Of a DNA stretch of 5,146 bases, positions 3,875 to 5,146 are shown one piece after another. The position numbers and the translations under genes are program-made. Source of the DNA: Thiobacillus sp. (GTDB taxonomy: Bacteria > Pseudomonadota > Gammaproteobacteria > Burkholderiales > Thiobacillaceae). The stretch covers positions 1 to 5,146 of the forward strand of contig JAABQU010000079.1 of the NCBI GenBank assembly GCA_011391285.1. The letters run 5' to 3'. Every line of letters starts with the position of its first letter. The first letter of the stretch is position 1. The notes under the pieces were generated by a model. The model was given only the letters and a program-made list of their open reading frames with translations, was not told where the DNA came from and ran no database searches.

Positions 3875-4819
3875 ATGACAACGAAAAAACCAGCAAGACC
3901 CAGTGTGGCGCGTCCCAAGGGTGCCCAAGTCAAGAAGTCGGCGCCCCAGGCCGGTACCGTGCGCGTGGCGGCGATCCAGATGGCGTCCGGACCCAGCGTG
4001 CCGGCCAATCTGGCCGAGGCCGAGCAGCTCATCGAACTGGCGGTCGATGCCGGCGCGCGCCTGGTCGTGCTGCCGGAATTCTTCTGCATCATGGCCATGA
4101 AAGACAGCTATGTGGTGAAGGCGCGCGAGGCCGAGGGGCATGGTCCGATCCAGACATTCATGGCGCGCATGGCGAAGAAACACAAAATCTGGCTGGTCGG
4201 CGGCTCGGTGCCGCTGGAGGCCAGCGTGCCGAACAAGGTGCGCAACAGCTGCCTGGTGTATGACGAACGCGGCAAGCAGGTGGCGCGCTATGACAAGATC
4301 CACCTGTTCGGGCTCGACCTCGGCAACGAGCGCTACCAGGAATCCAAGCTGATCGAGCCGGGCGATAAGGTCGTCGTCGTCAACAGTCCCTTCGGCCGTA
4401 TCGGCCTGTCGATCTGCTACGACCTGCGCTTTCCCGAGCTGTACCGCGCCATGCCCGATGTCGACATCATCGTGGTGCCGTCGGCGTTCACCGCCACCAC
4501 CGGGCGTGCGCATTTCGAGACGCTGATCCGCGCGCGTGCCATCGAGAACCTCGCCTACGTGATCGCGCCGGCGCAGGGCGGCTACCATCTGTCGGGCCGT
4601 GAAACCCATGGCGACAGCATGATCGTCGACCCCTGGGGCGTGGTGCTCGACCGACTGCCGCGCGGTTCCGGCGTCGTCATCGCCAATATCAACCCGGCCT
4701 ACCAGGCCAGCCTCAGGAAGAGTCTGCCGGCGCAGCAGCACCGCTTCATCCAGTGCCAGCAGATCCAGGTCGATGTGATCGAGCGCCGCACGGTCGCCAA
4801 GCGCGAGCCCACCAAGTAG
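3875..4819 (+). CDS. Carbon-nitrogen hydrolase (Nit-type amidase, nitrilase superfamily)
   Basis: A 314-residue cytosolic enzyme of the nitrilase superfamily, expected to hydrolyse a small-molecule amide to acid plus ammonia through a cysteine thioester. All three catalytic residues are in their usual settings: Glu68 (VVLPEFF), Lys141 (RYDKIHLF) and Cys181 (GLSICYDLRFPELYR). The Nit-type signature GRAHFETLIRARAIENLAYV is at 210-229, and GDSMIVDPWG at 246-255. This resembles Nit1/YbeM-like deaminated-glutathione amidases and Nit2-like omega-amidases; sequence alone does not decide the substrate. The conserved fold begins at about residue 29 (VRVAAIQM), so the first 28 residues are a Lys/Ala/Pro-rich extension. 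The ATG at 3875 has only a weak GGAA upstream, and GTG at 3959 (Val29), with AGG 8 nt before it, is an alternative start. About 25 residues after LPAQQHR also exceed the usual core. The gene lies 25 nt after yhdP. Its TAG stop is made of a target TA plus the first base of the inserted element at 4819-5084. Confidence 0.93.
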   Translation: MTTKKPARPSVARPKGAQVKKSAPQAGTVRVAAIQMASGPSVPANLAEAEQLIELAVDAGARLVVLPEFFCIMAMKDSYVVKAREAEGHGPIQTFMARMAKKHKIWLVGGSVPLEASVPNKVRNSCLVYDERGKQVARYDKIHLFGLDLGNERYQESKLIEPGDKVVVVNSPFGRIGLSICYDLRFPELYRAMPDVDIIVVPSAFTATTGRAHFETLIRARAIENLAYVIAPAQGGYHLSGRETHGDSMIVDPWGVVLDRLPRGSGVVIANINPAYQASLRKSLPAQQHRFIQCQQIQVDVIERRTVAKREPTK

Positions 4820-4839
4820 GGCGTGCTAATACTAATTTC
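4819..4839 (+). repeat. Left terminal inverted repeat of the MITE
   Basis: This 21-bp end begins GGGCGTGCTAATAC and finishes AATTTC. It is the reverse complement of 5064-5084 except at base 8 (C here, T in the complement of the other end). Weaker pairing continues inward to 4848 (7 of 9 more positions, sharing CCGCG). Its outermost G is the third base of the amidase stop codon. The AT-rich TAATACTAATTT stands out from the GC-rich surroundings and is a plausible transposase-binding segment. Confidence 0.92.
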
Positions 4840-4852
4840 ACGCCCGCGACGA

Positions 4853-4944
4853 GGCCGATTCGGGATGCAGGCCGCGAAGCGAGACGCGCCGCAGTGTCGT
4901 TCACTGCAAGCGGCTCGCGACAAAGGAAAGCACCCGAATCGGCC
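4853..4944. repeat. Internal inverted repeat with nested hairpin in the left half of the MITE
   Basis: GGCCGATTCGGG (4853-4864) pairs perfectly with CCCGAATCGGCC (4933-4944), a 12-bp stem enclosing 68 nt. Nested inside is a 6-bp hairpin: GCAGTG (4891-4896), loop TCGTT, CACTGC (4902-4907). No T-run follows, so it does not read as a factor-independent terminator. Confidence 0.8.
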
Positions 4945-4962
4945 CGTCCCTTCGGGTTGCGC

Positions 4963-5032
4963 GCAAGAAAGCGCGTCTGCGGCGTTGCGCCGCTTGGCAA
5001 GGGATGGCCCTTGCCGGCGCGACGCGCCTTGC
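4963..5032. repeat. Branched palindrome in the right half of the MITE
   Basis: The outer stem is GCAAG (4963-4967) plus GCGCGTC (4971-4977) against GACGCGC (5021-5027) plus CTTGC (5028-5032), with an AAA bulge at 4968-4970. It encloses two hairpins. The first is GCGGCG/CGCCGC (4979-4984 and 4988-4993, 3-nt loop). The second is GGCAAGGG/CCCTTGCC (4996-5003 and 5008-5015, 4-nt loop). As RNA or extruded DNA this would form a compact three-way junction. There is no U-tract after it. Confidence 0.75.
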
Positions 5033-5063
5033 ATCCATCGCTTTCTCGCGGCAACGCGGACGC

Positions 5064-5084
5064 GAAATTAGTATTAACACGCCC
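5064..5084 (-). repeat. Right terminal inverted repeat of the MITE
   Basis: This is the inverted partner of 4819-4839, starting GAAATTAGTATTAAC and ending CACGCCC, with one mismatch over 21 bp. It is followed immediately by the second TA copy (5085-5086). Partial pairing with the left end continues inward to 5055. Confidence 0.92.
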
Positions 5085-5085
5085 T

Positions 5086-5093
5086 AAGGGAGA
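5086..5093 (+). promoter_or_regulatory. Ribosome binding site of the usp-like gene
   Basis: AAGGGAGA lies 5 nt before the ATG at 5099, a good Shine-Dalgarno match that fixes this start. It begins within the TA duplication, directly outside the right end of the MITE, so the insertion left translation initiation of the downstream gene essentially intact. Confidence 0.8.
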
Positions 5094-5098
5094 CCACC

Positions 5099-5146
5099 AT
5101 GTCACAGGTCATTGCATGCATCGACGGTTCCAGACTGACGCTCGCG
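5099..5146 (+). CDS. Universal stress protein (UspA family), 5' end only
   Basis: Only the first 16 codons are present (MSQVIACIDGSRLTLA); the frame is open at the window edge. The short beta strand followed by the acidic CIDGS turn matches the start of UspA-family proteins (compare the usual ILVAVDGS), where the conserved Asp lies at the nucleotide-binding site. Usp proteins are cytosolic, often bind ATP and are induced under stress or growth arrest. The ATG is well placed after AAGGGAGA. Before the MITE insertion this gene lay 11 nt after the amidase stop, so it was probably translated from the same mRNA. The family call rests on very few residues and could be wrong; that a coding region starts here is more certain. 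Confidence 0.7.
   Translation, partial: MSQVIACIDGSRLTLA

Follow-up and report, generated by a model that had tools for sequence, protein, structure and literature searches.

The window analyzed here, a 5,146-nucleotide stretch of Thiobacillus sp. DNA, holds a short palindromic sequence that begins inside the stop codon of a gene, and it raises the question of what kind of element this is, what might move it and how its fold should be understood. An earlier note, made from the letters alone, had read it as an undescribed-looking miniature transposable element (MITE) with a TA target duplication and an IS630/Tc1-mariner affiliation. Our own reading, to which we give a probability of about 0.8 on the basis of sequence comparison, is that it is one copy of a large MITE family with a foldback interior, probably moved in trans by IS5 transposases of the IS427-group type, which would duplicate TA at YTAR targets.

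The element and its repeat family

The element occupies positions 4819 to 5084 (266 bp, + strand), limits that follow from its inverted repeats, from full-length relatives with the same boundaries and from a covariance model. It is flanked by a TA target duplication, at 4817 to 4818 on the left and 5085 to 5086 on the right. The terminal inverted repeats, at 4819 to 4847 (+) and 5056 to 5084 (−), form the 5′ and 3′ strands of a terminal stem; with the flanking TA included, the inverted-repeat arms (4817 to 4848 and 5055 to 5086) are 32 nt long and 91% complementary. Inside this stem lies arm A (4848 to 4948, +), a long stem with an internal loop and an apical hairpin at about 4891 to 4907, traced by covariation. 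It is followed by a central CCC-TTC-GGG (4948 to 4956, +), whose CCC and GGG columns are invariant in 43 aligned members, and by arm B (4956 to 5055, +), which resembles arm A on the other strand and consists of a long stem with conserved GCGTTGC and GCGCCTTGC and an apical hairpin. Reading frames of at least 60 aa at the element comprise one internal frame of 82 aa and two antisense frames that each cross a junction. The earlier note had described near-perfect terminal inverted repeats, TA on both flanks and no gene of the element's own, and we confirmed this description; its coordinates and length were right as well.

Upstream, a YhdP-family gene precedes a carbon-nitrogen hydrolase gene (3875 to 4819, +), whose TAG stop consists of the left TA and the first base of the element. 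The hydrolase is 96% identical in G287, the nearest of 300 sampled genomes from the order of a Hylemonella metagenome-assembled genome (MAG). Its named best relatives include Azonexus, several Thiobacillus, a Hydrogenophilales bacterium and one labelled Candidatus Thermoplasmatota, a label that may be a binning error. In G287 the same codon of the hydrolase (locus L113) is a TAA stop, and no element is present. The window element thus separates the TA of that stop from its A, and TAG is completed by the element's own first base, G. This is not a clean empty site because the next gene differs between the window and G287. By eye, the reading frame downstream of the element, which starts near 5099 (window positions 5099 to 5146), is unlike its counterpart after the hydrolase in G287, so the neighborhood has been rearranged as well.

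The element is multicopy. Matches to it occurred in 74 of 117 genomes from the family of G287, and many of them spanned positions 1 to 270, including both TA dinucleotides. The Hylemonella MAG (G001), which was reached through its end sequence at L012, carries six full copies of exactly 266 bp each and one further partial match, while 24 of 120 genomes from its family gave matches, mostly partial. Distant relatives with the same architecture reside on plasmids of Azotobacter, Halomonas, Variovorax and Pseudomonas. In both Azotobacter copies (L001 and L002) an IS630-end sequence directly adjoins the MITE, as judged by eye. Full-length candidates numbered 80, including one false hit (L055) that was removed from the sets of 79 elements used below; both TA were present in 66, a single one in 10 and none in 4, and 64 were 264 to 267 bp long. 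The earlier note would have given up its reading had there been no second copy, or had homologues ended elsewhere than at 4819 and 5084; second copies exist, and their boundaries coincide with these positions.

The covariance model found the family in 83 of 274 genomes from the class of the Hylemonella MAG and in 34 of 61 from the class of a zetaproteobacterial MAG, some of the latter weakly (E near 1e-4); these counts include the two MAGs themselves, which had been picked as carriers of the element. Among seven other genomes only that of Aggregatibacter kilianii had a match, one full TA-flanked copy, and there was none in the genomes of two Alphaproteobacteria, a Woeseiaceae, a Saprospiraceae, a Dehalococcoidia and an Oscillospiraceae. 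Copies per genome from this model are lower bounds, few candidates having been scored. A scan of genome contigs with a pattern for the ends returned nine stretches, about what chance would give (approximately 7.5 by our own estimate, for 18 fixed bases), and only L012 and L007 among them resembled family members. The same pattern found nothing in viral contigs. Phages gave no match to the window element or to L221, and E. coli genomes gave none to L260 or L221.

Some copies are reduced or rearranged. In G067 we observed TA-flanked stripped copies of 47 to 51 bp (L069:243-293, L098:141-188, L098:1885-1933 and L085:2799-2845), consisting of the terminal stem and a few central bases; their centers differ, as though arm deletion had happened repeatedly. 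A similar 46-bp remnant, at L208:3396-3441, has no TA on its right side. In G488, contigs C6, C10, C12 and C15 end inside the element, about 150 bases from the outer limit of a terminal repeat, which suggests that assemblies break within it. A few kinds of apical module, GAGGAGAGAAGTTTGGTnATTCCAAATGAACGACGAG being one, can be seen by eye to reappear in L106, L221, L222 and L233, in one arm or the other and across distant genomes, as if arms had been exchanged.

Insertion sites and stop codons

A copy in G287 (L120) provided empty sites. When its flanks were joined, an unbroken match across the junction was found in 40 of the 117 genomes, counting spanning matches down to E 8.8e-51 and leaving weaker ones aside, and any match at all in 79. 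In G287 and G496 the flanks are split with an overlap of exactly 2 nt, TA. All 12 of the aligned empty sites read NTA|A, which is the stop of an upstream YceI-domain gene. In G462 (L273) the same flanks are split, at the same stop codon, by 149 bases of different sequence with a short inverted repeat of its own; we rejected this insert as a copy of the family. Across the family, the insertion target has the consensus YTAR, with Y in 47 of 54 cases and R in 50 of 54. YTAR is the target of IS5.

Insertion into stop codons proved to be enriched. We took the stop codons present before insertion and used neighboring YTAR sites as controls. For copies at YTAR with long flanks, 20 of 43 lay in the stop of a frame of at least 150 codons, as against 28 of 219 control sites (odds ratio 5.9; Fisher p = 2e-6, a value that is optimistic because some copies share an insertion). 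The corresponding counts, of 43 and 219, were 25 versus 41 at a cut-off of 100 codons and 17 versus 21 at 200. A cruder test with frames of at least 80 codons, in which 41 of 88 junctions ended such a frame versus 38% of 1382 control TA sites, was unconvincing, since chance alone often keeps a frame open in GC-rich DNA. Because the element begins with G, TA followed by that base rebuilds a stop codon on either side, and insertions into stop codons may survive for the reason that this first base restores TAG. Insertions within genes are presumably weeded out.

Partner insertion sequences

The end pattern occurred 146 times across 12 genomes, 10 of which had it, while the reversed control pattern did not occur at all. 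Pairs of such ends bound insertion sequences. G067 has one IS of 827 bp between two of them. A related transposase is found at nine places in G006. Seven of these are IS copies flanked by TA, six of them complete at 824 bp and one measuring 820 bp; the pattern found only one end at the other two. The IS of both genomes have two overlapping ORFs, and when the frames were searched separately they matched NF033580 (IS5 transposase) and the Pfam domains DUF4096 and DDE_Tnp_1. The two halves from G006 scored 107.7 and 102.8 bits against NF033580, just below the whole-protein cut-off of 110.

The outer ends of these IS match those of the MITE. The left end of the G006 element (GGGCGTGTTAACACTAATTG) equals the two ends of the window element at 17 and 18 of 20 bases. 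Compared with the better end of each of the 79 elements it agreed at 10 to 19 of 20 bases, at 17 or more in 47 elements and at 19 in 12. All 152 BLAST matches between the elements and the two IS were terminal; they involved 52 of the 79 elements and left about the outer 14 to 22 bases in common, so simple deletion within either IS does not account for the MITE interior. Both G006 and G067, which belong to the family of G001, also carry full MITE copies (L037 in the former, L034 and L057 in the latter). The earlier note's call of a MITE with a TA duplication is therefore borne out by full-length relatives in many copies, by the empty sites of another copy and by autonomous-type elements with matching ends. 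We propose that transposases of the IS427-group type recognize ends like GGGCGTGTTAACACTAATT, insert at YTAR and duplicate TA, and that, as the shared ends would suggest, they mobilize the MITE in trans.

In the window's own lineage, the 117 genomes of the family of G287, we found no IS with these ends. An IS5_3 match reached E 1e-15 or better in 10 of the 117 genomes (over the cut-off in 7), and a search of their 17 loci for the ends gave none. The G067 transposase half was matched in 1 of 20 genomes. The missing IS may reflect assembly loss, as drafts and metagenome assemblies may drop repeated IS, and this is indistinguishable from real absence.

The fold and how it may be explained

Folded as single-stranded DNA, the element scored −97.7 kcal/mol (z = −9.5), a value that no sequence among 200 dinucleotide shuffles reached; these averaged −63.3 ± 3.6. 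We aligned 43 of 69 collected elements (alignment A1), and RNAalifold gave a consensus with a three-way junction and 86 pairs, 68 of which showed a compensated change. The terminal repeats vary in step, for example from GGGCGTG to GGGCCTG at both ends. The earlier note had taken the near-identity of the ends as a sign of recent activity; the near-identity stands, but the argument is weaker than it looks, as the ends co-vary in diverged copies too. In a test of 58 copies (the 69 elements minus 11, namely the false hit, length variants and one wrongly oriented row), two-sided Watson-Crick changes were about 12 to 17 times the expectation under independence for copy pairs 86 to 97% identical. Between copies 94 to 97% identical there were 179 one-sided and 36 compensated changes, the latter about 17-fold over independence. 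Paired sites were only slightly less diverged than unpaired ones among close copies.

In three copies (L001:1378-1642, L003:1380-1643 and L005:1379-1643) the apical loops are, by eye, largely complementary and seem to co-vary within a Pseudomonas-type subgroup, so that a loop-loop contact is possible there (GGTCATTCC with GGAATGACC in L001, GGTGGTTCC with GGAACCACC in L003). We do not claim this contact as a family trait, because it was seen by eye in copies of the Azotobacter, Halomonas and Pseudomonas type and is absent from the window type. Integron attC sites, whose core motif is GTTRRRY, were also considered and dropped, as the arms have no such core by eye.

A TA duplication on a short palindromic element would in principle also fit a MITE of an IS630/Tc1-mariner element, as the earlier note had it, and an IS630 transposase gene does adjoin the copy in L002. 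The ends of that IS630 element (CTAGTGTTATGACACAG...), the one examined, are nevertheless unlike those of the MITE, and the IS found with matching ends encode transposases of the IS5 family, so this affiliation finds no support among the elements compared, and we regard it as very improbable. Another alternative takes the element for a structured non-coding RNA carried on a transposon and working as the transcript of one strand. Such an RNA would account for the very strong fold, the near-constant length and the conserved motifs, and the many copies in or just after a stop codon would fall in the 3′ part of a transcript. The RNAalifold consensus even has two conserved G-U positions, one pair being U-G in 43 of 43 members and one G-U in 38 of 43; in a consensus restricted to Watson-Crick pairs the bases of these columns pair otherwise or are unpaired. 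An RNA acting as one strand should keep G.U and shun A.C, yet in that Watson-Crick-only consensus (94 pairs, 3529 paired cells) we counted 114 G.T and 129 A.C beside 264 other mismatches, and folds of single copies made without G.U gave 66, 79 and 148, respectively, for one-by-one mismatches. With G.T and A.C about equal, the pairing is best read as a property of DNA, or of both strands equally. Both strands of the same copies also match the covariance model, and no Rfam family was found at gathering score in the window or L001 to L005 (best weak match E = 0.08, under the cut-off). Pairing thus looks to be kept at the DNA level and not as one RNA strand, and we consider the RNA improbable.

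Harder to set aside, though still unlikely in our judgment, is that the fold is a by-product, with template switching during replication keeping the arms of a palindrome complementary and no selection on structure. Entire stems have been swapped with their complementarity kept, transversion swaps in the terminal stem among them; the excess of two-sided changes over independence would fit such switching; and the terminal-stem remnants of G067 show that arms are lost. Against this, conserved bases persist unpaired, as in the GCGTTGC/GCGCCTTGC bulges of arm B, which are unpaired in the Watson-Crick consensus. Motifs in their expected segments also lie far above base-shuffled counts: of the 79 elements, CCCnnnGGG was found in 74, CGTTR in 73 and GCCTW in 70, as against about 2, 7 and 4. 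Length, too, is held within the narrow range given above.

We prefer the mobile foldback MITE, in which the place of a gene between the ends is taken by a terminal stem, a CCC-nnn-GGG center and two hairpin arms, each roughly an inverted copy of the other. Its fold might work in DNA, on either strand, in the form of extruded hairpins or a cruciform; selection may maintain it, perhaps with help from correction between the arms as the DNA is replicated. Taken further, this leads to a tentative proposal, which we hold at less than even odds, of a mobile, strand-symmetric folded-DNA module. The pseudo-inverted arms would give either strand, in either orientation, one GCGTTGC/GCGCCTTGC arm, to be read by the transposase or a host protein in extruded or single-stranded DNA, and the ends together with YTAR would make stop codons a safe landing. 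The module, not listed in the catalogues searched, would occur in about one in three sampled genomes of the gamma/betaproteobacterial class and in about one in two of the zetaproteobacterial class.

Relation to known elements and significance

The IS427 group of the IS5 family shares with the present elements the outer end sequence and the TA duplication, and our partner IS of 820 to 827 bp have two overlapping ORFs. In the available parts of two sources, members of this group are described as about 832 to 865 bp long, with mostly 2-bp repeats and two frames with a frameshift motif (PMC3281130), and ISPsp10 as duplicating TA (PMC4133298). The MITE differs from IS of this group in lacking a transposase and in having, as its interior, a conserved foldback unrelated to theirs. 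TIMEs are likewise non-autonomous (262 bp), with conserved core stretches and stable predicted folds, but they have 38-bp Tn3 repeats and 5- to 6-bp duplications and are usually single copy, whereas in the present family the ends are GGGCSTG, the duplication is TA and a genome carries several copies. REPINs and BIMEs, which are mobilized by RAYTs, are hairpin-based mobile repeats in Gammaproteobacteria, as here; we know of no TA duplication or DDE-type terminal repeats in them. Correia elements of Neisseria have an end sequence different from that of the present family and, to our knowledge, no two-arm junction. They are likewise short, palindromic and multicopy, and they are mentioned in the available part of PMC4133298.

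Searching the literature by sequence words and by topic, with ISfinder outside the scope, we found related MITE and IS papers, and no description of the family among the papers searched. The words IS427, Thiobacillus, Azotobacter and Betaproteobacteria are absent from the available part of the text of a 2024 MITE review (PMC10969869). Neither these searches nor the Rfam search contradicts the earlier impression that the element is undescribed.

If our reading is right, a single family of structured mini-transposons is present in a large share of Gamma-, Beta- and Zetaproteobacteria and is missing from Rfam and from the papers searched. The family would offer a direct test of selection on the fold of a mobile element's DNA, as opposed to its RNA. 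A simple rule, a TA target combined with an end whose first base is G, would leave a gene intact after insertion into its stop codon.
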